A DNA stretch of 60,369 nt from a virus, in the IMG/VR virus record IMGVR_UViG_3300013133_000005, positions 1 to 60,369 of that record, one strand, 5' to 3'. Both the position numbers and the translations under genes were made by a program. The notes beneath the pieces are model-generated. The model did not search any database. It had not been told where the DNA came from and saw only the letters and a program-made list of their open reading frames with translations. This document shows positions 193 to 32,644 of this stretch, piece by piece (the stretch's first letter is position 1; each line of letters opens with the position of its first letter).

Positions 193-852
193 ATGTACGC
201 GCTTCGCGATAAGTACCCAATCAACAGCAAGCCCGAACTTGAGAAGGCGGCAGCGTACTTTGACAGGTACCTGACTCGCTTCAGCCCGGATGACAGGGTC
301 ATCATAGCGGTTAATATGTCGAAACAGGCATCGGCCCTGTCTGTCGATATTGACAGACCGTGGATCGACAACTATTCACGCATGGTGAAGACCGGTCAGT
401 ATTCTCCGGAGTTCGCCAAGCGCATGAATGATCGCAAGACGTTCATCAAGAATGCCAGCATTCAGGGTACCAGCGGGGCCGACAAGCTCGCCGCCCTTAT
501 CGACAAGGTTGTCGCAAGCCATGATAAGGTTGAATCGGTCAAGATGGTCGGTGTTGTTGCCGAGATTGACAAGCAGGCCAACCTGTGCGGTCTGTACGAC
601 AGCAAGATATCAGATCCTGTGATGACCGTATTTGGATGTTCGGCCGATCCGCATTTTGATGCGTACAGTGTCGGGCACTCCCTGACCAATTACGACATCG
701 AGAAGATCGCCCGCACAGAGTCGACGATGGAGAAGATTGCTTCGACTGTCGGTAAGGACGTGGCTGATGCCATACGGAAAGGCCAGGCGGAAGGATTCAG
801 GGGCCTGAGCAATAGCGCCAAGATAGCCATATCAGCCGTACTCAGGAGATAG
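193..852 (+). CDS. Hypothetical virion-region protein (219 aa)
   Basis: Not recognised. The start is set by a strong ribosome site (AAAGGAGACGTC before ATG). The protein is mostly helical, with repeated Lys-Ile-Ala stretches, and has no membrane segment or cofactor motif. It overlaps nothing and is followed at once by a GTG-started gene and then the portal gene. This position suggests a head or packaging accessory protein, which is inference from context only. Confidence 0.75.
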   Translation: MYALRDKYPINSKPELEKAAAYFDRYLTRFSPDDRVIIAVNMSKQASALSVDIDRPWIDNYSRMVKTGQYSPEFAKRMNDRKTFIKNASIQGTSGADKLAALIDKVVASHDKVESVKMVGVVAEIDKQANLCGLYDSKISDPVMTVFGCSADPHFDAYSVGHSLTNYDIEKIARTESTMEKIASTVGKDVADAIRKGQAEGFRGLSNSAKIAISAVLRR

Positions 853-853
853 T

Positions 854-1600
854 GTGCCGTCCGACATTGCACAGAAATTGATGGACGCCCACATGGTGGG
901 TGACCAGCAGGCGATTCAGGCCATCCAAGCGCAGGTCGCCAAGATGGTTGAAGACGCTGCGCCCAAACCTTCTGGCGATGATGCGTTTAAGATCAGAACG
1001 ATATTCAGCGACGACAGTGCGTCAGCCATCAAGATGTACGACTTCATGAATGAAAGATTCGGAGCTGACTGGTATGACTGGGAACTTGAAACGATTGAGC
1101 GCATGCTTTTCATTGAATACGGCGTATCACTCGAAGACATCAACAGAGACAAGCTATTCGCCATCAGGCACGTTTGTCGCAGCGACGGCTGCTTCTCTGA
1201 CTGGTTCGAGTTCAATCAAGTTGCGCTATCTTTTGCCGGGTGCATTGCTGATTTTGAATGCCTTAGGGCTCCTTCACCTGGTATGCTTATCAATGCGGTG
1301 AAGACAGTAAAACACATCCGTCCCGACCGTAATGGTGAGTTTGGGATTGATGTGGAGAAGTATCTGTGCGTCGCCTTTATCAATGATGGGATCTACTGCC
1401 CTCCTCCGTCGCTGTTTGACTGGCTGAAGGACAGATTCAAGGCAATGGTACATGTGCCCACATCAAACATGTGGCAGGATATCCTGAAAAGGTCTCGCGA
1501 GATCATACAGGGCAGTCGTGACATTGAAGAGAATCCAGTAGACATACAGGCCGCCAGAATTGTTCGTACTGAATTGGCTGCACTATCTTACCAGGGATAA
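854..1600 (+). CDS. Hypothetical protein upstream of portal (248 aa)
   Basis: The GTG start at 854 lies one base after the previous stop and has AGGAGATA just upstream, so translation is probably coupled. The protein has an acidic helical N-terminus and a central part rich in Trp, Phe and Cys (DWYDWELE, CRSDGCFSDWF). No family is recognised. It ends three bases before the portal start, so it is likely co-transcribed with and functionally linked to head assembly. Confidence 0.75.
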   Translation: MPSDIAQKLMDAHMVGDQQAIQAIQAQVAKMVEDAAPKPSGDDAFKIRTIFSDDSASAIKMYDFMNERFGADWYDWELETIERMLFIEYGVSLEDINRDKLFAIRHVCRSDGCFSDWFEFNQVALSFAGCIADFECLRAPSPGMLINAVKTVKHIRPDRNGEFGIDVEKYLCVAFINDGIYCPPPSLFDWLKDRFKAMVHVPTSNMWQDILKRSREIIQGSRDIEENPVDIQAARIVRTELAALSYQG

Positions 1601-1603
1601 AAC

Positions 1604-3676
1604 ATGGCTAATGAAGGCGCAGCGGGAACTGGGCTTATCACCAACATGACTGGTGGTGATAAGAGTGGAAACACCAAGATTGCCTTTACTCGCGGCTCTC
1701 TGAAATACGACACTCCGTTCCTTGATATGACGAGTACGTTCATACCAAGGACAATCAAGGCCATTCTTCGATTCGTAGCTGCGTATGTTCTTGGCGATGG
1801 ACTTATTGCTCAGTGCATCGCCAAAATGGCCGAGTATCCAATTACCAGCCTGATCTACAACGATGACACGAAGGGGTCAATCAAGGACGACAAGTCTACC
1901 GAGTACTGGAAAGATCTCCTTGAAAAAAAGTTGAAGCTGTTGCGCGTTCTCAAGCAGTGCGGTATGGATTACTATGCGTACGGAAACTCAATCATCTCCA
2001 TCAGCTATCCGTTCATGCGCATGCTGGAGTGCCCGCGTTGCCACGTAAAGCACAATGCTGAATCTCTCAGGGTCAAGTTCCGTGGATTCAAGTTCTACGC
2101 CAATTGTACCACCAGGGGTTGCAACTACAATGGCGCCATGAACCCGAGCGACGTACTGACCAAAGAGATTTCGAAGATCTCCATTGTTCACTGGGACTTG
2201 ATGAACATCGACATCAAGTACAACAGCATCACTGGTGATCATTTCTACTTCTACACGGTTCCTGTTGATCTGGCGAATGCAATACGCCGTGGCGACATGG
2301 ATCTCGTGAAGACAACAAGGCTTGAGGTCATTGAGGCAGTTCGTCGTCGCAAGCAGTTGAAGCTGATGGCGGACAACGTGTTCCACATGAAGCGTCCTGC
2401 CCCTCAGTACATCATTCCTTCGGAACGCGGCTGGGGCATACCCGTCGTCATGCCGGTGATGAAGGACATCTTCCATATCAAGATTTTGAAGAAGGGCAAT
2501 GAGATGATCTCGTTTGATCACATTGTCCCACTTCGTCTTCTGTTCCCATCTGGAACTGGAGACATCAGCCCGCACGCTACGATGAATCTTGGGACATGGA
2601 GAACAAAGGTTGAGGCCGAGATTCAGAAGTGGCGAGCTGATCCAAACTATATCTCAATCATGCCGCTCCCTCTTGGTATGCAGAACCTCGGTGGCGACGC
2701 CAGGCTTCTCATGGTTACACCTGAGATCAAAATGACTGAGGATAGCATCATCACCGGTATTGGAATCATACCAGAAATAGTGCGCGGCGGTGCGACATGG
2801 TCTGGGAGCAACGTATCTCTCCGTGTGGTTGAAAACACGTTCCTCAATCACCGCGCAGACATTGACAGTCTCAAAGACTTCATTATCGACAACCTGTCGA
2901 CGTATCTCGGCAAGCCCAAGATCAACGTGTCCATGTCTGACTTCAAGATGGCCGATGACCTGCAGAAGAAACAGATGATGATACAGGCCGCAACAGGCGA
3001 CGCGCGGAATGCTGTTGTATCCAAAACAACTGTGACAAAGGAACTTGATTTCGATCCTGATGAAGAATTCGAATACATGAAGGAAGAGACCAAGAAGCGT
3101 ATCGAACTGGCTATCCAGCAGGCCGAGGGCGAAGCTGAAGCTCAGGGGGCCGCGTCCATTGTGGCAGCCCTGTATCAAGCTGACGCTCAAATGGAGAACC
3201 AGACTCGTCTTGAAACCCGTAATCGTGAGGCTCAGGCTCGTCGTGACAATGAGCGTGCGCTTATGAGCGAACAGAGCGCTGTTGGTGTTGATCAGGAGGT
3301 CGGCGGGCTGTCCAATCAGGCCGGTACACAGCCACAGGGTGTTTCGATACCGAACCTCATCCTTCTGCTTACCCAGAGGTTCTCAAGGCTTGCACAGGTT
3401 GATCGTAACGAGTTCAAGATTCGCATGCTTGCCATGAAGAATACTGCGCCAAACCTGTATCAGGAAGTCTATAACAACCTCAAGGAAATGAACCTCATTG
3501 AGGCCGATACAATGCCCGATCTGGCCACGGTGCAGCAATACACCCCTGGACAGATTCCAAGCGCTTCTCAGGGCGATTTGTATGCAGAACAGCCGCCTTC
3601 TACGGCAGAGGTTGGTGCAAGTGTCGGGGCGCTGCCAGAACAACGTCCTCCAAGATCGGTTTCATCGACTGTTTGA
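1604..3676 (+). CDS. Portal protein with zinc-ribbon insertion (690 aa)
   Basis: Portal proteins form the dodecameric DNA gate at one capsid vertex and dock the terminase. The length, the GWGIPVVMPVMKDI stretch, the helical stem/crown region after about residue 390 (ITGIGIIPEIVRGG) and a long charged coiled-coil C-terminus fit phage portals of this size. Four cysteines at about 143, 146, 168 and 173 form a zinc ribbon in the N-terminal wing, which is uncommon in portals. The last 150 residues are Gln/Glu rich. Start: ATG three bases after the preceding stop. The assignment rests on overall pattern and context rather than one catalytic motif. Confidence 0.8.
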   Translation: MANEGAAGTGLITNMTGGDKSGNTKIAFTRGSLKYDTPFLDMTSTFIPRTIKAILRFVAAYVLGDGLIAQCIAKMAEYPITSLIYNDDTKGSIKDDKSTEYWKDLLEKKLKLLRVLKQCGMDYYAYGNSIISISYPFMRMLECPRCHVKHNAESLRVKFRGFKFYANCTTRGCNYNGAMNPSDVLTKEISKISIVHWDLMNIDIKYNSITGDHFYFYTVPVDLANAIRRGDMDLVKTTRLEVIEAVRRRKQLKLMADNVFHMKRPAPQYIIPSERGWGIPVVMPVMKDIFHIKILKKGNEMISFDHIVPLRLLFPSGTGDISPHATMNLGTWRTKVEAEIQKWRADPNYISIMPLPLGMQNLGGDARLLMVTPEIKMTEDSIITGIGIIPEIVRGGATWSGSNVSLRVVENTFLNHRADIDSLKDFIIDNLSTYLGKPKINVSMSDFKMADDLQKKQMMIQAATGDARNAVVSKTTVTKELDFDPDEEFEYMKEETKKRIELAIQQAEGEAEAQGAASIVAALYQADAQMENQTRLETRNREAQARRDNERALMSEQSAVGVDQEVGGLSNQAGTQPQGVSIPNLILLLTQRFSRLAQVDRNEFKIRMLAMKNTAPNLYQEVYNNLKEMNLIEADTMPDLATVQQYTPGQIPSASQGDLYAEQPPSTAEVGASVGALPEQRPPRSVSSTV

Positions 3677-3891: not shown

Positions 3892-4194
3892 CTACCTGCT
3901 CACATTTGCGCTCAGTAAGTAGTTCTCCAGATCAGAGATCGTCTTAATCTGTCGGAAATCGCCATCGGGAGACGAACATGAGATGATGGTGTCCTCTTCG
4001 TCTGAAAGATCAAACGAGAGAATATTCCCATTTTTGAGAGCCAATTCAGCCTGACCCTCAAGGGCTTCCGAACCCGGTTCCTGGTCATCCTTGAGTTTGG
4101 AACACGAAAGACGAAAAGAGCTGATCTCGGTTGCGGCGACGTACGTTACATCTAACGCATCTATGCCTTCTGCCGATTTCACTATCTTCAACAT
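3892..4194 (-). CDS. Hypothetical acidic protein at end of the ubiquitin-like operon (100 aa)
   Basis: Not recognised. A clear AAGGAG site precedes ATG at 4194. The protein is acidic (EEDTIISCSSPDGD), about 100 residues, with alternating strands that could form a small beta sandwich. It is the last gene of the minus-strand run encoding the ubiquitin-like system, separated from the Ubl gene by 67 bases with a hairpin, so it may be read at a lower level. A role in the pathway is possible but has no direct support. Confidence 0.65.
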   Translation of the reverse strand: MLKIVKSAEGIDALDVTYVAATEISSFRLSCSKLKDDQEPGSEALEGQAELALKNGNILSFDLSDEEDTIISCSSPDGDFRQIKTISDLENYLLSANVSR

Positions 4195-4220
4195 CTGTAC
4201 TCCTTATAGGCCAAGGGAAG

Positions 4221-4248
4221 GCCCGACCGCCGTTAGACGGCCGGACCC
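4221..4248 (-). terminator. Hairpin after the ubiquitin-like gene
   Basis: GC-rich inverted repeat with core GCCGT-TAG-ACGGC in the 67-base gap after the Ubl gene. No long T-run follows on the minus strand, so it may be an attenuator or a partial terminator. Confidence 0.4.
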
Positions 4249-4261
4249 GGATGACAACTGG

Positions 4262-4729
4262 TCAGTTGCCCTTGGTCTTCGTGGCGCAGATGATGCGCTC
4301 GGTCCCAGAGGCGGGACGCACGATCGGCGCGTTGGCATCGATCAGCGAGCCGTTTCCGAGACGGTACTCCTGGTACACCTGGGTGCCATCGGCACGGATG
4401 AAGTTTGACCGACGGCCCGCGTCGAGAGCGTTGAACGCCGACAGGACCGTGGTACCCTCTTCAACCGCAACTGCGATCATGGGCTCGGCGGCACCGAGAC
4501 GGATGATCTGCAGCTCGAACGGAAGGTTGCCCTTGGTCTGACGGGCGATGAACACCAGGTTGCCGTCGCGGAGAATCGTGTTCTCGTTGACAATGGCACC
4601 GTTGATGGACACCGCGCCCTGGACGAAGTTTTCCTCGGCCATTTCGAACAGCCGACCGACAGTCGAACCATCCTCCATCGCGAACGACTTGATCTCGGCA
4701 CCCAGCATCGCAAGCTTTGCTACCAACAT
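4262..4729 (-). CDS. Tandem beta-grasp ubiquitin-like protein (155 aa)
   Basis: Two ThiS/MoaD/ubiquitin-like domains in one chain. Domain 1 (about 1-68) carries the classic pattern VSINGAIVNENTILRDGNLVFIA. Domain 2 (about 69-155) has VAVEEGTTVL, ADG and LIDANAP in matching places. Each domain ends in the same four residues, Thr-Lys-Gly-Asn (65-68 and 152-155), instead of the usual Gly-Gly. Cutting after Gly would yield two units with free C-terminal glycine, the form an E1 enzyme adenylates. The neighbouring JAMM protein is a natural candidate protease. The start has GGAGGAAGTAGA upstream. The fold is well supported; conjugation to a target is inferred from the E1, JAMM and E2-like neighbours. 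Confidence 0.82.
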   Translation of the reverse strand: MLVAKLAMLGAEIKSFAMEDGSTVGRLFEMAEENFVQGAVSINGAIVNENTILRDGNLVFIARQTKGNLPFELQIIRLGAAEPMIAVAVEEGTTVLSAFNALDAGRRSNFIRADGTQVYQEYRLGNGSLIDANAPIVRPASGTERIICATKTKGN

Positions 4730-4765
4730 TCTACTTCCTCCACGAATGAGTGAATAATGTCATGG

Positions 4766-5518
4766 CTACATTGCCATGACTGGGTCGCTCCCGAACACGC
4801 GCATAACAAACTGCTCGGGATACAGCGAGAAAAACACCTCATTCCACATCTTCGGAATCTTACCATTCGAATCCGAAAGCTTCCCGTTACCGTAGTGCGT
4901 GTTGAAATGCTGAATCACACGCCCGACAGCGAGAGACGCAAGGAATGAAGCTGTTGAAGCTATCGACTGAGAGGCTCCGCACGGGGATCTGTCAGCCGAC
5001 TCGTCTGAGTACAGTGTCTCCTTCCAAGCCTTCACCTCGGACGGGATCTGCGGGCAGAAGGCATACACGCGGCCTTCTTTCAGCCCCATCCTTGTTTCGA
5101 TTACCAGCTCGGTATTGAAGCTGCACCCAAGACACTGGTCGTAAATCTCTTGCCGGCTCTTCATCGTGTCCGTGAGAAGGAACACATATGTCGAGCGGGC
5201 GGATGGTTGGCCAGTAACCATCTCTGGGTAGGCTTCAATATCGAAGCCGCATTTCCGGTGAATCAGGTCTTTCATTGCCTCAACCTTGTGCATCCCAATG
5301 TGCTCAGGATAAAACTCTTGGTTGCATAGGTTGTGCTCTTCGACCTTGTCGCCGTCGAACAGTTTCAAAACACCCTGGCCCGTGTTGGAGTCGCCCCACC
5401 CCATTTGGGCCAGAGTCAAAGCAATCGTGCTTCCTGTTGCCCCGACGCCGATGAGAGAAATGCTTTTGCCTTTTATCTCTCTCGGGTCGAGTATTCCGAT
5501 TTGACGTACGTAGTCCAT
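4766..5518 (-). CDS. ThiF/E1-like ubiquitin-activating enzyme (250 aa)
   Basis: E1-type enzymes adenylate the C-terminus of a ubiquitin-like protein and often pass it to a cysteine. The protein shows the Rossmann nucleotide loop GVGATGS (24-30), the acidic strand end LFDGDKVEEHN (D55, D57, N63) and NQEF in place of the usual RQ-F. Cys180 in SPCGASQS is a likely thioester cysteine, followed by a helical segment (ASTASFLASLAVG) typical of this superfamily. The length matches single-domain ThiF proteins. The paired CxxC zinc site of many ThiF/MoeB proteins is not seen. It sits 36 bases upstream of the ubiquitin-like gene and 6 bases after the JAMM gene. Confidence 0.87.
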   Translation of the reverse strand: MDYVRQIGILDPREIKGKSISLIGVGATGSTIALTLAQMGWGDSNTGQGVLKLFDGDKVEEHNLCNQEFYPEHIGMHKVEAMKDLIHRKCGFDIEAYPEMVTGQPSARSTYVFLLTDTMKSRQEIYDQCLGCSFNTELVIETRMGLKEGRVYAFCPQIPSEVKAWKETLYSDESADRSPCGASQSIASTASFLASLAVGRVIQHFNTHYGNGKLSDSNGKIPKMWNEVFFSLYPEQFVMRVFGSDPVMAM

Positions 5519-5524
5519 TGTTTG

Positions 5525-6523
5525 TTATGCTCCACCATTGAATCGTCCGGTGAACTGCGGAGAAACCGACCCAGACCTGATTACCTGCCGGTTCTTTTTC
5601 CCTCTTCCTCCACCCCTCATGTGCTTGTCGACGATCGCGCCGTACTCCTGCCGAGATGCCGTTGTTCTCTGTTGGCCGCCAACAACAACTACACGGCCAG
5701 GTGAACCAGGAGAAGAAGCAAACGGCAAACTTTCGTTCTCAAAGCCTTCATAGTCATAGTATGGGGGATAGCCCCCATGATGATCGTAATGACAACCACC
5801 ATGATAGCCGTCGCCAGAATAACCATGGGTGGTTTGAACCGGAACATTCAGAGCTTTGAGCTTCAACACTTTGGCTTTGATTTCATCCGCGACCGGGTCC
5901 TGCTTGGTAATCTTATCAATTTCAGACAGTTTTTCCGATGCGGACTTTGTTTCGGCTAATACGGACGCAATGAGTGCCAGCTTCTCGTCCAGTATGGCTT
6001 GGAATTCTGCTTCAGTTGGAGCATCGATCGTCCAAGGCACATGCTCGAACTTGATCTGGCGCTCATAGTCGAAGAACGCCACATCCATCTTATAGTCCTT
6101 GTTGACAATCACGCGGATGAGATACGATTGATTCTGGTTCATCCGCTCCAGTGATTGCTGCTCATCCTGATGAGATGCAAACACCCCCATCGTGTGATGG
6201 GAGTGACCCCACAGGCGCAGCTTACTCAGGTCGGCTACCCTTCCGTGCTCACACAACCAGTTGACAATCTGAGCCTCGCCTTCCGGTGAAATCTCACATG
6301 TACCGGACGTGATCAGCTGATGCTTTGGATAGAATATGTCGCGAATCTTGTAGGTATTCGGCTCCGTGTCGTCAACCACTCCGAAGAATCCAACCTCCTC
6401 GGAATGATTTTCGACAAGAGCCTTAATCCACAGAATCGACATCGCCGAGAACGTGATTGATGGGGGGATTTTCGCCCTAACATCAATCGACGTATATGTG
6501 CACTTGTCGTCTGTTGGCTTCAT
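5525..6523 (-). CDS. JAB1/MPN (JAMM) metalloprotease (332 aa)
   Basis: JAMM enzymes are zinc isopeptidases that process or remove ubiquitin-like modifiers. The N-terminal 130 residues hold the complete motif: Glu43 (EEVGFFG) and His107-x-His109-x7-Ser117-x2-Asp120. A coiled coil follows (about 165-215), then a His/Tyr/Gly-rich low-complexity stretch and a basic Gly-rich tail ending in NGGA. The start at 6523 has GAGGAGA and overlaps the previous stop by four bases (ATGA), showing translational coupling. In this operon it probably matures the tandem ubiquitin-like protein and/or deconjugates it. The tail may bind nucleic acid or partners. Confidence 0.88.
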   Translation of the reverse strand: MKPTDDKCTYTSIDVRAKIPPSITFSAMSILWIKALVENHSEEVGFFGVVDDTEPNTYKIRDIFYPKHQLITSGTCEISPEGEAQIVNWLCEHGRVADLSKLRLWGHSHHTMGVFASHQDEQQSLERMNQNQSYLIRVIVNKDYKMDVAFFDYERQIKFEHVPWTIDAPTEAEFQAILDEKLALIASVLAETKSASEKLSEIDKITKQDPVADEIKAKVLKLKALNVPVQTTHGYSGDGYHGGCHYDHHGGYPPYYDYEGFENESLPFASSPGSPGRVVVVGGQQRTTASRQEYGAIVDKHMRGGGRGKKNRQVIRSGSVSPQFTGRFNGGA

Positions 6524-7599
6524 CGCGCTGTCTCCTCGGCTACAGGCCAATATGCAAGATGCGTACAGTACGCGTCAGTTGGCTCTGGGTTCTTGAGGAA
6601 TCGCAACATGATCTCAACCATCTGATCCAGATGGCACTCTGCTGCCGCTATCGCGAGTTGAGACATGTATCCACCAAGGCACGGATAGGTGTCGCGAACA
6701 TGGCCACACTGGAAATGGTCATATTCACGTTCCGTGTTCCAGACCCGTATTGTCGCATTGTCTTCATTGTTCGCGCCGAGAGTGGTCGGATTAGCAATCC
6801 ATCTCATATTGAAACCTATGAGCATGCGTCCAATGACACGGCGGTGGCCTTCGATTTCGACAGCCGTTGAAATCTCTTTCGTTTTGACAATCAGATACGT
6901 GTTGAACATTCCGACAGATTCCACATCGGAACACTGGCGCACGCGCTCGATCGCCGCAACCAGCTTATTGTAATTCGCCGCAGCATTGATGCTTCCATTT
7001 GAATCCATGCGATGGATGTATGACGCAAGATCTCTTTGTGCCGACACAAGAAGCGCAGCCTGCTCATCGACCCTTGTCCTCAACCTGTCAATAGCTCTTG
7101 CAGATTCGGCAGCAGAATTCATCGACAGATTTGTGTACATCGAGTAAATATCAGGTGGTGTCGGTGGCGTCGCGGTCGGCAACGGAGTCTGCGGATTTGT
7201 TACCTGATGTGTTACAGTTGTGGCCGCAGGCGCGTTCGCATCAACCGGTTCGAGTGGCGGCAGCACCGTCATATCGATAAGATGCTGCGGGTCGACATCT
7301 CCTGGCTCGTCGACATCTCCTGGCTCGTCGTCTGGATCCATTTCATCCATTTCATCCTGAGTTTCCTCGTCGGTGGTGAAATGGTATTGTCCGGGACTAT
7401 TGGCAGCAAGACACACATTGTGTGTGTTCTCATAGAACCCGATACCCACTTCTTCGGCGGCATCCACGAGATCATCTCTGCTCTCAAATACAAACTGGAT
7501 TCCGCCTGTCGCGTCGGGCGCCCACTCTTGAGCGCCCCTTATCAGCACTGGCAGCCGATCGCCAACCAACAGATCGGCCGCCACCCTCAGATAGACCAT
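6520..7599 (-). CDS. E2-like domain protein, shorter paralogue (359 aa)
   Basis: Residues about 228-352 align with the C-terminal domain of the next upstream gene: two predicted strands, then a Cys-containing loop (HFQCGHVRDTYPCLGG, Cys307), a helix, a second helix ending MLRFLKNPEPTD and a final WP. This order resembles the UBC/E2 fold, where the active Cys follows a HPxV-GxIC loop and precedes two helices. The E2 reading is inference; the paralogy is visible. Residues 90-103 hold a short repeat (EPGDVD twice), followed by a Pro/Thr-rich linker and a coiled coil (about 160-220). The N-terminal region is unassigned. It lies between the larger paralogue and the JAMM gene. Confidence 0.72.
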   Translation of the reverse strand: MVYLRVAADLLVGDRLPVLIRGAQEWAPDATGGIQFVFESRDDLVDAAEEVGIGFYENTHNVCLAANSPGQYHFTTDEETQDEMDEMDPDDEPGDVDEPGDVDPQHLIDMTVLPPLEPVDANAPAATTVTHQVTNPQTPLPTATPPTPPDIYSMYTNLSMNSAAESARAIDRLRTRVDEQAALLVSAQRDLASYIHRMDSNGSINAAANYNKLVAAIERVRQCSDVESVGMFNTYLIVKTKEISTAVEIEGHRRVIGRMLIGFNMRWIANPTTLGANNEDNATIRVWNTEREYDHFQCGHVRDTYPCLGGYMSQLAIAAAECHLDQMVEIMLRFLKNPEPTDAYCTHLAYWPVAEETAR

Positions 7600-7611
7600 G
7601 TTTGCCTTTCG

Positions 7612-9735
7612 TTATGCGATTGTTGAAACAGGAATTGGAATTGCCCCTGCGAGTTCCTCATCAAACTTTACCTCTTCTGCAACCTGCTCCTTCGGGTATG
7701 GGAGAGGAATTGAGGGGTCTGGAACTTTGCCAAGGGCGATATCTTCTGATACCTCTGGCCACTGGTTGACATACGCTCCGGCAGAATCGTCGGTGTTGGC
7801 GTACCCCAAGAACAGCAGCAACTGCATTACCAGTTGATACAAGTCCTTGCTCTTGTACGCTTCCGCCATTCCGACTGCCAAGTTGCCATGGCATATGTGA
7901 CCATCTTGAAATACATGCGGCGCTTCCATGACTCTCCCGCTGAACGCCACGACGTGATTTTTCAAATTCCTGACCCTGACGGTGTGAGCCGTGTCATACC
8001 TGTCACTGTGCATGTATATGATGATATGGAAATCACCAATTTCATGCCAGCGCTTTGTGCGCTCGTCTTTCGCGTAGATTGTACGCGTGTAGATATGCAC
8101 GGCTTCGTTGATTATGAACATTGATCTGACATTCTTCATTTGCATAATCAGTTCATAATCAGCAGCCGCCTTTTCTTCCGCACTCTTGTGCTGCGCAGAA
8201 GTATCCATTGAATTCCACATCATGGATGATGTGTTGATTGTTTTGGAAAGCTCCAACATTTCGGTCTTCAGATTATTGAACCTGTCAATCTGCTCGTCGA
8301 GTTCTTCCTTAATGCGTTCCTTGGCCCTCCTGATCGACGACGTGGCTGCCCGAATCAGGTTGTTTTTGGTGGCCTGCCTCATCAACTTATAAACTTCTTC
8401 ATGGCGCTCAGCACAGGCCGTCTGAGAATTGGTGAGCTGATAATGAACATCAACAAATGAACCGTGGATCCTCCAGATGCTCTTGACGAGAAATACTATC
8501 TCGTTATTTTTCATGACAGCGTATACAACACCGGTCGCCCAATCCCTGAATATCTTATCGTATCCAGTGAGCGGACGATTCTTGGCGGTGTTGATTATTT
8601 CGTTGAGCTTTGTTGTCCTGGCTTGCGCGGTGAGGTTCCTATCAAGCCGTATCTTATCCAATTCGGCATTCAGACCCTGAGACTTCACGAATGCGATCTC
8701 GTTTATTGCGATGGGCTCACCAAGAACAGATGCTATGTTTTCGCCGCCGTCCTCGTAGTACATGAACCCTGAGTATTCCGGCCGAGTCATGATTGCCAGA
8801 TATTCAGTGGTGGTATCCAAGAACCTCTTTGTAACGGTATCGGCCTCTCGATACCCACAGTGTACCAGCATCACATGCTTGTTGAGATGCTTGGATATTG
8901 CAACGACGGCGTCGTAATCATGACTGTCCAGAGTTAAGCGCTTGATCCCAAACATCATGATCGCATACTCTTTGTCTTCGGGAAAGTCTATCGACGCCCC
9001 CATGCCATAGCGCCCTTCGTAATCATGGCGCAACCTTTGATAGGTGCTGATAATAGCATTCCGGCGATCGAGCCGCTTCTTCACCGGATCTTCAGGCGCA
9101 GGCGACTTTTCTTCAGCCTTACCGGGTTCGGACCGATTGGGCTTCTGATCGTTCGCCTGCGATTTCTTTTCAGTGACACCAAGAATATCATTCACCACAT
9201 TGGTTGTTGGATGCGCCTGAGCTGCGACATTTATAGCGCCAGTCGCCGCCTCTATTGCCTCTATTTCGTTGTTGTCGATGCCTGTATTGAAATCTTCCGC
9301 TTCCGTCGGCTGCAGAATCTCGAACCGCTCAAACGTCGACTGGAATGGATGCGCCTGTTTGTATCTGACCACCAGATCAGCAATCACGACGGTCACATCA
9401 GGCACGGCGCGAACTATATCAACGCACCTTCGATACTCACGAGACGCCTTGACGGCATCGCTGGTAAGCGAGTCCACCACACTGAATCGTGAGTAATAGG
9501 CGCACATATACAGCGTCATCCCTTGTACATCAGCAGCGCAGGTCGTCACTGGCGACCATGCCAGGGTTTGATTATCTACGTGTCTTCTGATGTAATCATA
9601 CACCATTCCGATGTATGAGAACTCTTCCTGCGGAATCGCATAACACGTCGCATCCATGAGGGCATGAGGAATCTTTGCCTCAATGCCAAGCGCGTCGACC
9701 AACCACTGATCGGCAAATCCAATAAATGGCCTCAT
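7612..9735 (-). CDS. E2-like domain protein, large paralogue (707 aa)
   Basis: First gene of the ubiquitin-like operon, starting with AGGGGACGAT before ATG, about 60 bases below a conserved phage promoter element. The C-terminal domain (about 520-660) reads PHVFQDGHICHGN with Cys615, then two helices (KDLYQLVMQLLLFL) and QWP. This matches the shorter paralogue and resembles the ubiquitin-conjugating (E2) core motif HPxV-GxIC. The rest comprises an N-terminal globular part, a charged linker (about 185-225), a middle domain with MLVHCGYRE, and a coiled coil (about 460-510). The N-terminal domains match nothing I recognise. A combined E2/E3 or substrate-recruiting role is possible but unproven. 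Confidence 0.7.
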   Translation of the reverse strand: MRPFIGFADQWLVDALGIEAKIPHALMDATCYAIPQEEFSYIGMVYDYIRRHVDNQTLAWSPVTTCAADVQGMTLYMCAYYSRFSVVDSLTSDAVKASREYRRCVDIVRAVPDVTVVIADLVVRYKQAHPFQSTFERFEILQPTEAEDFNTGIDNNEIEAIEAATGAINVAAQAHPTTNVVNDILGVTEKKSQANDQKPNRSEPGKAEEKSPAPEDPVKKRLDRRNAIISTYQRLRHDYEGRYGMGASIDFPEDKEYAIMMFGIKRLTLDSHDYDAVVAISKHLNKHVMLVHCGYREADTVTKRFLDTTTEYLAIMTRPEYSGFMYYEDGGENIASVLGEPIAINEIAFVKSQGLNAELDKIRLDRNLTAQARTTKLNEIINTAKNRPLTGYDKIFRDWATGVVYAVMKNNEIVFLVKSIWRIHGSFVDVHYQLTNSQTACAERHEEVYKLMRQATKNNLIRAATSSIRRAKERIKEELDEQIDRFNNLKTEMLELSKTINTSSMMWNSMDTSAQHKSAEEKAAADYELIMQMKNVRSMFIINEAVHIYTRTIYAKDERTKRWHEIGDFHIIIYMHSDRYDTAHTVRVRNLKNHVVAFSGRVMEAPHVFQDGHICHGNLAVGMAEAYKSKDLYQLVMQLLLFLGYANTDDSAGAYVNQWPEVSEDIALGKVPDPSIPLPYPKEQVAEEVKFDEELAGAIPIPVSTIA

Positions 9736-9797
9736 ATCGTCCCCTAGTTAAAAAGAATTGTTGACGGGCACCCGAACGTTGCCCGGCGGTTAAATCT

Positions 9798-9822
9798 CCC
9801 ATTATTGTTGTTTCACAAATTC
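9798..9822 (-). promoter_or_regulatory. Class A phage promoter for the ubiquitin-like operon
   Basis: Minus strand reads TTTGTGAAACAACAATAATG then GGAG. It is nearly identical to the element at 28014-28037 and matches seven further copies. The start codon of the downstream gene is about 60 bases away. Confidence 0.65.
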
Positions 9823-10145
9823 TTGGGAGATAACATTGTGCCTGGAGGAGGAGGTATACCAAGAACTGATTTAACCTTCATCCATTCGGACCAGGTATCA
9901 CAAACGAATGTCTTACACCCACAAGCGTTCAGTCTGGCGATTCTGTGCTTCTGCAAATCAGATGGCCTCTCGCCCTCTCGCTTTGCTTCTACCATGCATG
10001 GACCACAGCATTCCATGGTAAAGAAGATGTCTGGGAATCCGTTCTTATTTGCCCTTTCGATCTTGAATACTTCGCATTTATCCCCATACGATTCAAGATC
10101 CGAGAGGATTGACGATTGCAGTTTTGACTCAAGCGCCTTTTTCAT
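9813..10145 (-). CDS. VRR-NUC type nuclease (110 aa)
   Basis: VRR-NUC proteins are small PD-(D/E)xK nucleases, often acting on branched or damaged DNA. Visible elements: an N-terminal helix, GFPDIFF (Asp39), the catalytic VEAKREG (Glu53, Lys55), Gln65 in PSDLQKH and the closing CGCKTFVCDTW. The length is typical for stand-alone phage members. An extra Cys pair (CCGPC) precedes the catalytic strand. Its 3' end overlaps the promoter of the downstream ubiquitin-like operon. The ribosome site is weak. Confidence 0.85.
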   Translation of the reverse strand: MKKALESKLQSSILSDLESYGDKCEVFKIERANKNGFPDIFFTMECCGPCMVEAKREGERPSDLQKHRIARLNACGCKTFVCDTWSEWMKVKSVLGIPPPPGTMLSPKNL

Positions 10146-10260
10146 CTGCGTGATTTCTTGCAGAATAGATTAATGACGGCTTTTGCAATCCGTATGATCA
10201 TAACATGTGATTCGTATCGTCCGCTTTTGCCTCGCGGTTGAACGTTTCGCATATCCATGA

Positions 10261-10485
10261 TCATTTACTGCCTGGAACAAACACGCATGCGTTCCCGATA
10301 GTGTGTATGTACCCTCCAGGAACACGCGTGACGAAGATTCTCAATGTGTACGAGCCGTCAACGCTAGACTCGTATGAAAACGAGTGCCCCATGGCGAGTT
10401 GTTCATATTGCGTGTAAAGATCTTCAACGCTAGTCTTGCTGACGCTGAGAGACAAGATGTTGCCAGCAGCATCATCTGAACTCAT
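10261..10485 (-). CDS. Small hypothetical protein (74 aa)
   Basis: The start ATG at 10485 is chosen because GGAGGTATC precedes it. A longer in-frame reading to 10653 would run back over a terminator and the HTH gene. No family is recognised; alternating hydrophobic residues suggest a small beta-rich domain (SYTLRIFVTRVPGG). The gap of 115 bases upstream of the VRR-NUC gene holds nothing else I can identify. Confidence 0.6.
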   Translation of the reverse strand: MSSDDAAGNILSLSVSKTSVEDLYTQYEQLAMGHSFSYESSVDGSYTLRIFVTRVPGGYIHTIGNACVFVPGSK

Positions 10486-10503
10486 GATACCTCCAATGAA
10501 AAC

Positions 10504-10521
10504 GGCCAGGTTCTCCTGGCC
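10504..10521 (-). terminator. Intrinsic terminator of the HTH gene
   Basis: GGCCAGG-AGAA-CCTGGCC hairpin on the minus strand followed by GTTTTC. It separates the HTH gene from the next small gene. Confidence 0.65.
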
Positions 10522-10537
10522 GCGCGACAGTCTGATG

Positions 10538-10861
10538 TTATACTGATCTTCGTTTATCGAGCGGAGCAGGGTCGATCCCAGTCCGTTTGCTTTCGGAACG
10601 TATGATCCTGTATATCTGAGATGAAGACATTCCGAGCTTCTGGCCGATTTCAATACCAGTCTTGCCCTTCTCGTAGGCTACCATGATGATTCTGTTTCTT
10701 TCACCGCTGTTGGCTCGCAACGACGGAAGACCGAACTTCTTTCGAAGATGGTGAACTGCCTGCCTCGTAATCCCAATGTTGGCGCCAATGTTCTGGTCGC
10801 TTCCATGTTCTTTTTGAAGTGTTGCAAGTTGAAATTTGGTTATATTCACTTTTTGCGGCAT
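10538..10861 (-). CDS. HTH DNA-binding regulator (107 aa)
   Basis: Two helix-turn-helix segments are visible: IGANIGITRQAVHHLRKKFG (about 25-44) and IEIGQKLGMSSSQIYRIIRS (about 71-90). Such two-HTH proteins resemble phage regulators or MarR/Trp-repressor-like sensors, and terminase small subunits can look similar. The gene has its own sigma70-like promoter (TTGACA at 10907-10912) and its own terminator, so it is expressed alone. This favours an early regulatory role. Confidence 0.75.
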   Translation of the reverse strand: MPQKVNITKFQLATLQKEHGSDQNIGANIGITRQAVHHLRKKFGLPSLRANSGERNRIIMVAYEKGKTGIEIGQKLGMSSSQIYRIIRSESKRTGIDPAPLDKRRSV

Positions 10862-18684: not shown

Positions 18685-19746
18685 TTATTGTCCGTTACCA
18701 GCAAGTTTGTCGATCGCATTGAGCGCGGCAGTATTGCTTGGGGCCGGCTCTCCATGCGATCCTGATTCCTCAACATCATCTACCGCGTCTGCGTCTGCAC
18801 CGAAGTTGACAGCAATATCTCGCTGATCTTCCACATCAATCGGCACAGCTTCTGTTTCGGGAATGCTCTGCGGAGTTTGATCCGTCAGCATACCGATGTT
18901 TGCAGATCCGGCAAGAGCGGCGGCGCCGACGTTCTTCAGCATGCCCCTCTTGATCGGCTCCATGACAGACTGTGTAAATTCGGCCGATGGAAGCACTTCG
19001 GTAATGTACACGTCCCTGCCGCCAGACTTTACCTTGTGATGCCACAAGATGAGTTTCTGCCCGAAGAAGCCATCAAACGGCAATGGCTTTCCTGCTTCAA
19101 TTTGTCTGACTGTGTGCGCCGCATTGAGGAGCGACCACAGGTCGGACAGCGAGGATTCAATCCTCATGATAGTATTGATTGATCTTGTCTCAAACCGATA
19201 TGGGTTTGGGGCCATGTCTGCCGTTGGAAACACCTTCATGAGTCCTATGGCTTTGCATGCCCCAGACTTGTAATCAGGGCATTCTTCGAATGCACACTTG
19301 GCAACTTCGTTGAATTGCCTGTCGATCCATGTGCGTTCGCCCTTTTCGTTGTATTGCAGATATCGGGCAACAGTGCCAGCGCCATGGCTTTTGCACAGAA
19401 GACCATCAGACTGCGAATACATAGCTAATGAAGATTCCCAGAATTCCTCGGGTGTCTTGTACAGACATATGAATGAAATCTTGCGAGGCTCTTTGGATTT
19501 CGCTTCTTCCATCAGCTTGTCTTGAACAGGGCCGTTCAAAACCCACTGTTTTGTGTTCACGACTTGGCCACTCTGGGTTCTTTGAGCGGATACTGTTTCC
19601 TTCAGAATCCTGAAGTGTCCAGCCGGGATTGGGTGATTGGACTTGTTGATACCCTCTCCGGCCGCGAATCCTGCCGAAATCTTTCCACGATAGGTGGTAG
19701 TCTTTTGGATAACACCATCTTCGTTATGCGTTATGCCCACAATCAT
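18685..19746 (-). CDS. gp3-like (recombination directionality factor family) protein (353 aa)
   Basis: The central part resembles the phage gp3-like family: LLCKSHGAG-VARYL, a Cys cluster CAFEECPDYKSGACKAIG, PNPYRFETRSINTI and GKPLPFDGFFGQKL. Family members include the excision factor of phiC31, yet most phages with the gene lack a serine integrase, and the cluster probably binds zinc and nucleic acid. The C-terminal 90 residues are acidic and disordered, like an SSB tail. It lies beside the dNTP hydrolase and SSB-like genes, so a replication or recombination role is more likely here than excision. No integrase is in the window. Confidence 0.55.
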   Translation of the reverse strand: MIVGITHNEDGVIQKTTTYRGKISAGFAAGEGINKSNHPIPAGHFRILKETVSAQRTQSGQVVNTKQWVLNGPVQDKLMEEAKSKEPRKISFICLYKTPEEFWESSLAMYSQSDGLLCKSHGAGTVARYLQYNEKGERTWIDRQFNEVAKCAFEECPDYKSGACKAIGLMKVFPTADMAPNPYRFETRSINTIMRIESSLSDLWSLLNAAHTVRQIEAGKPLPFDGFFGQKLILWHHKVKSGGRDVYITEVLPSAEFTQSVMEPIKRGMLKNVGAAALAGSANIGMLTDQTPQSIPETEAVPIDVEDQRDIAVNFGADADAVDDVEESGSHGEPAPSNTAALNAIDKLAGNGQ

Positions 19747-31829: not shown

Positions 31830-31904
31830 TCGGGAAGACAGGATTTGAACCTGCGACTTCTTGGTCCCAAACCAAGCGCTCTAGCCAGACTGAGCTACTT
31901 CCCG
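31830..31904 (-). tRNA. tRNA-Pro (UGG)
   Basis: Full cloverleaf: acceptor CGGGAAG/CTTCCCG with discriminator A, D arm AGCTC/GAGC, anticodon stem CTTGG/CCAAG with loop TTTGGGA (anticodon TGG), T loop TTTGAAT. No encoded CCA. It lies in the minus-strand operon between small genes. Confidence 0.93.
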
Positions 31905-31910
31905 TTGTGG

Positions 31911-32207
31911 TTATCGGCTACTGAATCGTAGTGTGAATGACTGCAAGATCGTCCAGCGCTCTCGGGCGCCAAGCTTATTGAGCGCCGTCAGCAATTCATC
32001 TGAATAATCCATGACAACAGAGAAACAAAGAACCTCTTCGCCATCGAATTTCACCTTGGGAATCAAGATCATGCTTTTTGATACTGGAATCAAGTCTGTA
32101 ACAATTCCTACACGAAGAGAGTTGTCGTCCGGGTTTGCCTCAAAGGAATTGGATACAGATATGACTTTCTTCCCAATCCAGTGTTCTTTCAATTTGTCAG
32201 GTGACAT
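31911..32207 (-). CDS. Hypothetical protein (98 aa)
   Basis: Not recognised. Predominantly beta (KKVISVSNSFEA, RVGIVTDLIPV, MILIPKVKFDGEEVLCFSVV), like a small SH3/Tudor-like barrel. GGAGGAGCAC lies upstream and the start overlaps the membrane protein gene by 11 bases. Its position between two tRNA genes gives no functional hint. Confidence 0.65.
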   Translation of the reverse strand: MSPDKLKEHWIGKKVISVSNSFEANPDDNSLRVGIVTDLIPVSKSMILIPKVKFDGEEVLCFSVVMDYSDELLTALNKLGARERWTILQSFTLRFSSR

Positions 32208-32514
32208 GTTGGTTGTGCTCCTCCACCTGGTGTAAGATTTTCTTTATATTTCGCTTATGCCTGACATCTTCAGCGAAGCTGCTGATCGTAGACCTGATCA
32301 TAAAGCCTACAAACCATGCACCAAACCCTATGACCATGACGACGAACCCTGCAATGAGTCCATAAACAAAAACTGAAAAGGCCTTATCAATCCAGTGCGC
32401 CATGTTGGACATTGGGATTTTCCAAATCGCAAATCCAATCGATGACAGGATCACCAGGCCGAGGATGAGGTCAACAAGCGGCCCCTCCCATAGCGCAACG
32501 AAAAAACGTTTCAT
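32197..32514 (-). CDS. Membrane protein, two to three spans (105 aa)
   Basis: Hydrophobic segments at about 13-33 (LVDLILGLVILSSIGFAIW) and 46-72 (FSVFVYGLIAGFVVMVIGFGAWFVGF), then a basic cytoplasmic tail with coiled-coil character. CGGAGGATAG precedes ATG. The size fits a holin, but no endolysin is adjacent, so it is left as a membrane protein. Confidence 0.7.
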   Translation of the reverse strand: MKRFFVALWEGPLVDLILGLVILSSIGFAIWKIPMSNMAHWIDKAFSVFVYGLIAGFVVMVIGFGAWFVGFMIRSTISSFAEDVRHKRNIKKILHQVEEHNQHVT

Positions 32515-32532
32515 CTATCCTCCGGTAGAATT

Positions 32533-32604
32533 CTGGGGTGGATGGATTCGAACCACCAAATAGCAGGACCAAAACCTGCTGGCTTGCCATTTGCCGACAC
32601 CCCA
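32533..32604 (-). tRNA. tRNA-Gln (UUG)
   Basis: Acceptor TGGGGTG/CACCCCA with discriminator G, anticodon stem GCAGG/CCTGC with loop TTTTGGT (anticodon TTG), T arm TGGTGG-TTCGAAT-CCATCCA (five or so pairs). Starts with U as bacterial tRNA-Gln does. No encoded CCA. First feature of the minus-strand operon. Confidence 0.92.
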
Positions 32605-32644
32605 ATGGGCATATGTCAAGTATACACCATGCGAAAAAAAGAGA

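Follow-up and report, generated by a model that had tools for sequence, protein, structure and literature searches.

The virus fragment analyzed here (IMG/VR record IMGVR_UViG_3300013133_000005, all 60,369 bases of which are referred to as the window) carries on its minus strand, from position 9735 down to 3892, a run of six genes, five of which encode what appears to be a complete set of parts for a ubiquitin-like protein conjugation system. The six products are two paralogous proteins with a domain resembling that of ubiquitin-conjugating (E2, or UBC) enzymes, termed E2A and E2B, a JAMM metalloprotease, a ThiF/E1-type adenylating enzyme, a tandem ubiquitin-like modifier (Ubl), and a small protein X (Table 1). 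The open reading frames (ORFs) and the exact gaps between them are those given in a first-pass annotation made from the DNA letters alone: 12 nt separate E2A from E2B, E2B and the JAMM gene overlap by 4 nt (ATGA), and intervals of 6 and 36 nt lie between JAMM and E1 and between E1 and Ubl, respectively. A further 67 nt separate Ubl from X. The mechanically called JAMM ORF begins at TTG 6550, upstream of ATG 6523, which is most likely the start of the gene and therefore gives the ATGA overlap with E2B. The window also encodes a terminase large subunit (PHROG 675, 4.5e-58), a primase, and helicases, and we therefore assign it to a tailed phage.

Table 1. Genes of the conjugation cassette in the window, in order of transcription.
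Product	Length	Position	Strand	Features
E2A	707 aa	7612..9735	-	E2/UBC-like domain in C-terminal part
E2B	359 aa	6520..7599	-	E2A paralogue; E2-like domain in C-terminal part (CGHV...C, Cys307)
JAMM/JAB metalloprotease	332 aa from ATG 6523	5525..6523	-	WGHSHHTMGVFASHQD metal site and upstream Glu
ThiF/E1-type adenylating enzyme	250 aa	4766..5518	-	ThiF domain, conserved Cys180
Tandem Ubl	155 aa	4262..4729	-	two repeats, each ending TKGN
Small protein X	100 aa	3892..4194	-	counterpart after Ubl gene in L001, L009, L010

An alignment-based scan gave 55 viral loci, and an iterated profile of each component was run over all ORFs of these loci. The whole six-gene block occurs in the same order in L001, a viral contig of 208 kb that a search with the E1 had turned up, and the order E2A-E2B-JAMM-E1-tandem Ubl is kept in seven distinct relatives (L001, L006, L008, L009, L010, L012, and L014); counting the near-copies L007, L013, and L015, ten relatives carry the five cassette genes as they stand in the window. 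The gaps within the block range from -50 to +43 nt in L006, L008, L009, L010, L012, L014, and the near-copies. A gene for X also follows the Ubl gene in L009 and L010, and the identity of X to its L001 counterpart is weak (19%). The six-gene arrangement is beyond chance, and homologous phages keep these genes together, the opposite of the scattering that the first-pass annotation had named as an outcome that would speak against it. The window clade, with all cassette genes on one strand, comprises the window, L001, L006, L008-L010, L012, and L014, with L011 cut by a contig end, and it is supported in the E1 tree (100/99 for the eight tandem-Ubl rows and 99/95 for nine when L014 is included). 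The terminase family of the window is also present in 9 of 18 such records, many of the records being fragments. More divergent loci contain one Ubl, one E2, a JAMM, and an E1, arranged as Ubl-E2-JAMM-E1 in L019, L022, L023, L030, and L038. The tandem label requires three changes on the E1 tree, and for this reason the doubling of the Ubl was probably gained or lost more than once. Other searches were less informative: a nucleotide search of phages gave no match, nor did a tblastn search of phages with E2A, no match was confirmed when the Ubl alone served as scan query, and a genome scan with the E1 alignment gave only a weak Coprococcus match, using patterns that differ from those of the viral scan, so that absence from bacteria is not implied.

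The individual components were identified as follows. The E1 protein is a single ThiF domain over its 250 aa that matches Pfam ThiF at 4.6e-17, and its profile finds UBA5, UBA6, ThiF, and MccB in the PDB. It has the ThiF/E1 adenylation fold with the nucleotide-binding residues and a conserved Cys in place, and its key residues are near-invariant, with Asp55, Asn63, and Lys78 kept in all 55 sequences and Asp117 and Cys180 in 54 of them. Searched directly against protein families, the window's JAMM, E2, and Ubl products returned nothing useful, and these assignments came from the relatives and from profiles. The JAMM family profile matches RPN11 at 3.3e-11, followed by CSN5, BRCC36, and AMSH. 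The window protein, which also has a Gly/His-rich tail, contains the Glu and the HxH-x7-S-x2-D metal site, and across 51 sequences the Glu is kept in 49 and the two His, the Ser, and the Asp in 50. The first-pass annotation had called both proteins on their motifs, an E1 enzyme and a JAMM isopeptidase with all ligands, and both calls stand.

The modifier consists of two repeats, the first ending at Lys66-Gly67 (TKGN) and the second at Lys153-Gly154-Asn155-stop (TKGN). The AlphaFold2 model places the protein within the beta-grasp fold, with two such domains and a mean predicted local distance difference test score (pLDDT) of 85.6, values below 50 being confined to the two tails (residues 64-68 and 153-155). 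Foldseek ranks linear di-ubiquitin, ISG15, and FAT10 highest in the PDB, with E values of about 2e-6 to 1e-5. Whole-chain TM-scores against these matches are low (0.3-0.4), as expected if the two domains have no fixed arrangement relative to each other (predicted TM-score of the model, 0.51). In addition, the Ubl sequence profile matches SAMP2 (1.9e-5), and the Ubl of one relative (L027) passes the Pfam ThiS cut-off in two stretches. Gly67 and Gly154 are invariant in the 11 tandem Ubls, and the residues that follow the final KG or GG vary: N-stop in the window, NRW, NKS, or SR elsewhere, and in L008 a stretch of about 21 residues downstream of KGN. Precursors that have to be trimmed at the C terminus, as those of ubiquitin are, show such variable residues after an invariant Gly, and the processing of the window Ubl is predicted on this basis. 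Plasmid PRTRC-C proteins often end straight at TKG, which makes the adducts ending in Thr-Lys-Gly that the first-pass annotation expected a sensible prediction, and a mature end of the window Ubl at ...TKTKG would fit. The Ubl gene also has the highest G+C content at third codon positions (GC3) among the 30 window genes measured (0.79, the next being 0.66), and it ranks first in 8 of the 11 tandem-Ubl loci, a pattern that single-Ubl relatives do not share and that is compatible with high expression. The tandem Ubl of L016 (10687-11100) has two closely similar repeats, each ending KQIKGN, and has the appearance of a polyubiquitin-like, recent doubling.

The E2-like domain of E2A lies at about residues 510-665, preceded by a long predicted helix, and contains APH at 605-607 (HPx-like) and the catalytic Cys615; residues 1-380 form a large N-terminal region that is kept in the clade and matches no family. 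In E2B an acidic and proline-rich linker lies ahead of the corresponding domain. That the two large proteins have this domain in common, as first read from their sequences, is borne out by profiles iterated over the relatives, each of which finds its counterpart in the window (2e-35 and 6e-73). Many relatives have HP[HN][VI]xxxGxxCxG in the catalytic region, where E2A has APH and E2B has CGH. The Cys and the His eight residues before it, the spacing of the UBC HPN...Cys motif, are each kept in 33 of 34 sequences. With an E limit of 10, a profile of the 34 E2 domains matches 85 PDB sequences, and of the 60 matches shown 58 carry the name of a ubiquitin-conjugating enzyme, a UBC protein, or a fusion of these, the other two being called L3A2-1; in the alignments printed, the Cys of the profile is paired with the catalytic Cys. 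In the model of E2A the C-terminal part is predicted confidently over the catalytic region and resembles the UBC fold, its top PDB match being human UBE2H (E 0.024, probability 0.72), with FTS, UbcH5b, Atg10, and UBE2E2 also among the top eight; none of the matches lies below E 0.001. Since no single match is strong, the UBC assignment rests on fold, motif, profile, and context together, that is, a UBC fold with an active-site Cys after an HPN-type motif in which His replaces Asn. Among the relatives, the L030 E2 matches Pfam UQ_con below threshold (E 0.014) and on its own gave only chance matches in the PDB by phmmer. Four E2 proteins have Cys-rich, possibly zinc-binding C-terminal tails (L019:1850-3232, L022:714-2096, L023:2422-3780, and L030:7867-9081) that could be built-in E3-like parts.

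Relatives of the cassette are also found in cultured phages. The jumbo phages Erwinia Ep032 and Xanthomonas PhiXhv-12, PhiXhv-15, and PhiXhv-16 encode an E1 beside a large protein with an E2 domain, which the E2-domain profile finds in Ep032 at E 1.3e-9 and which is 98.7-100% identical over 878 residues among these phages. The gene ahead of the E2-domain protein in Ep032 encodes a 141 aa product with a terminal GG, which we take to be the modifier, and PhiXhv-12 has a gene of similar size at that place. JAMM and E1 genes are adjacent in crAss001 and in the Flavobacterium phage Fipvunavirus FpV4, in neither of which an E2 or a Ubl was identified. The crAss001 gene gp78 (L075:3986-5320), which stands before the JAMM (gp77) and E1 (gp76), encodes GYMHSHVSS...PCTGRG, recalling the HPx...Cys motif of the E2s, and this putative E2, if real, would give crAss001 an E2, a JAMM, and an E1. 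In the phage records read, the E1 is annotated as thiamine biosynthesis, ThiF, or E1 family, the JAMM as a metalloprotease at best, and the E2 and modifier as hypothetical proteins.

Based on the homology or fold and the catalytic residues of each part, the joint inheritance of the block, and the invariant Gly tails, we propose that the cassette gives the phage its own reversible pathway for ubiquitin-like protein conjugation, a reading to which we assign a probability of roughly 75%. Specifically, the JAMM protease would remove the residue or residues beyond the terminal Gly of the tandem modifier and may separate its two repeats as well. The exposed Gly would then be adenylated by the ThiF-type E1, which may charge the modifier on Cys180. 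E2A, with its paralogue E2B, would take over the modifier as a thioester on Cys615, and the two would transfer it onto amino groups in proteins of the phage or the host, from which the JAMM protease would later remove it. The first-pass annotation had also proposed a single pathway. The identity of the parts and their inheritance as one block bear this out, and a single cascade with a covalent product is strongly suggested by them. Several observations weigh against the proposal. Several loci contain a JAMM and an E1 with no E2 or Ubl recognized, so these two enzymes may also serve another purpose, and Ep032 has no detectable JAMM despite its Ubl, E2, and E1. What we take to be the Arg of the NLxRQ motif of ThiF/MoeB is replaced by Asn in the window E1 and most relatives (Asn in 34 and Arg in 5 of 55). 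The E2 matches are individually weak, with best E values of 0.027 by sequence and 0.024 by fold, and no E3 or substrate was identified.

The closest plasmid counterparts are the PRTRC cassettes, which correspond to the type 6d operons described by Iyer, Burroughs, and Aravind in 2006 (PMC1779556), and in their apparent mode of working the phage sets resemble them. As in these, the phage Ubl, E2, JAMM, and ThiF-type E1 are separate genes, the simpler phage sets run Ubl-E2-JAMM-E1, which is the PRTRC order C-(F)-B-A-ThiF without F, and PRTRC-C ends in TKG like the phage Ubl repeats. In profile comparisons the E1 (2.9e-28) and the JAMM (to PRTRC-A, probability 92, 5.7e-7) are clearly homologous to the plasmid proteins, and the E2 is related to PRTRC-B (0.0036, aligned on the Cys motif) as a hint only. 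The cassette could on these grounds be a phage branch of PRTRC doing the same job as on plasmids, perhaps DNA maintenance. However, the window E1 scores 47.9 bits against PRTRC_ThiF (TIGR03736), for which the cut-off is 144.75, no other PRTRC model, those for PRTRC_A, B, and C included, matches the window proteins (among the relatives, the L030 JAMM does so only at E 0.071), and nothing was found when the Ubl was compared with PRTRC-C. The sampled PRTRC sequences form their own group in the E1 tree (99/95). Among the neighbors scanned, Pfam and PHROGs recognized no ParB, E, or F partner, the PRTRC ParB, E, and F models having been run on only part of these neighbors. The window order, E2A-E2B-JAMM-E1-Ubl, differs from Ubl-(F)-E2-JAMM-ThiF, and the window clade has two E2s and a tandem Ubl. 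The phage E2s possess the classical His at -8, whereas type 6d E2s are reported to have none (PMC1779556). We therefore rejected the PRTRC label, on the model cut-offs and the gene order, and consider a shared plasmid-type function unlikely. Even less probable, in our view, is that the Ubl is a ThiS/MoaD-like sulfur carrier, processed by the JAMM protease and converted by the E1 to a thiocarboxylate that serves in building a cofactor or thiolating a nucleic acid. The ThiF-type E1 and the ThiS match of the L027 Ubl would suit such a carrier, but sulfur transfer has no place for a conserved pair of E2-like proteins that bear a Cys, nothing next to the cassette was recognized as a thiamine, molybdopterin, or sulfur gene, and the tandem modifiers resemble ISG15 and di-ubiquitin.

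The Bil defense system likewise combines an ISG15-like tandem Ubl, an E1, an E2, and a JAMM in one operon, and its E2 is defined by a CEHH motif consisting of Cys, Glu at +6, His at +8, and His at +13 (PMC11354881). The window resembles it in having an ISG15-like tandem Ubl and a separate JAMM enzyme. The CEHH motif is absent from the window E2s, where Cys615 of E2A is followed at the same positions by Val, Met, and Lys, and Cys307 of E2B by Ser, Leu, and Ala. Moreover, the Bil E1 comprises an inactive and an active adenylation domain plus a Cys domain, in contrast to the single-domain E1 of the window, whose set has two E2s and sits on a phage. The Bil label was rejected because of the missing motif and the one-domain E1. 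Hence the similarity to Bil and PRTRC noted at first reading holds for the parts list, yet neither definition fits. A weapon like Bil that tags structural proteins of competing phages, leading to superinfection exclusion, would draw on the common parts list and tandem Ubl; we regard it as improbable, to about the same degree as the plasmid-type function, given the different motif and E1 architecture and a location among replication genes rather than with accessory defense genes. Type II cyclic oligonucleotide-based antiphage signaling systems (CBASS; Cap2/Cap3) and the E1-E2 fusions of PADLOC share E1 and JAMM chemistry, but the E1 and E2 of the window are separate genes and the PADLOC matches cover the E1 part only; with no E1-E2 fusion protein, membership in CBASS type II (Cap2) was rejected. 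The lambda-type tail assembly proteins I and K are a phage Ubl and a JAB peptidase (PMC1779556) that lie among tail genes and, unlike the window set, are accompanied by no E1 or E2. The phage set is, in our assessment, a variant of the E1-E2-Ubl-JAMM kind that belongs to neither PRTRC nor Bil. Our literature search found no paper describing the phage sets as a conjugation pathway; it left out preprints and most subscription journals, and an earlier description is possible. Within the proposed conjugation pathway, E2B may be a scaffold or partner, as UEV is for Ubc13, with E2A as the only catalyst. In most of the clade E2B has CGH and so lacks the Pro of HPx, and the catalytic Cys has been lost from the second E2 of L018 (7769-9130; GYPVAG), like a UEV pseudo-E2, but Cys307 is otherwise conserved in the clade, and we lean somewhat away from this variant.

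The recognized neighbors of the cassette in the window are a VRR-NUC protein, a SNF2-type helicase, an exonuclease, and the primase. Similar functions surround the relatives, with a toprim protein and a uracil-DNA glycosylase (UDG) in FpV4, a helicase, a primase, a UDG-like protein, and a dUTPase in a bajarodcaudo virus, a primase, UDG, Holliday-junction resolvase, and exonuclease in crAss001, and DNA ligase and topoisomerases in PhiXhv-12. The presence of DNA-metabolism genes beside the cassette in separate phage groups is a hint that favors a role in DNA replication and repair or early host takeover over one in virion assembly, and our guess is that the targets belong to the former processes. 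Tagging of virion parts, one of the uses suggested in the first-pass annotation, finds no specific support, the annotated neighbors being replication and repair genes. Nor could its placement of the cassette under a phage promoter be upheld, as sigma-70-like matches are no more common in the window than in shuffled sequences (6 found, 7.0 expected) and the stretch immediately upstream of E2A contains none.

Bacterial ubiquitin-like conjugation is known mainly from plasmid operons with no assigned use and from anti-phage defense. The set found here turns up again in many large phages, most of them uncultured, an indication that phages carry out ubiquitin-like protein tagging of their own. With a complete and conserved set in several phage lineages, relatives in cultured jumbo phages, and some of its genes in crAss001, viruses of bacteria may use protein tagging as a tool, and the phage sets provide tractable genes with which to learn what such systems modify. 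We tentatively suggest, at slightly less than even odds, that several tailed-phage lineages run a complete and reversible ubiquitin-like system distinct from Bil, in some of them built around paired E2s and a double modifier resembling ISG15, that regulates phage replication or inactivates host proteins early in infection.

A few further features were seen at the loci scanned and elsewhere in the window. Besides its JAMM-E1 pair at 8763-10648, L045 contains another JAMM gene with two more E1-like genes after it, at 501-3511. On a 251 kb Lysinibacillus irui plasmid (L064:4880-8868), a ThiF-family gene lies between a gene for a 365 aa hypothetical protein and dnaX, a replication-gene neighbor. 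A Pfam Gp3-like match in the window at 18685-19746 (recombination directionality factor-like, 1.5e-11) is relevant to the question of a strictly lytic life cycle, and two tRNA genes, Pro-TGG and Gln-TTG, lie at 31830-32605 on the minus strand.

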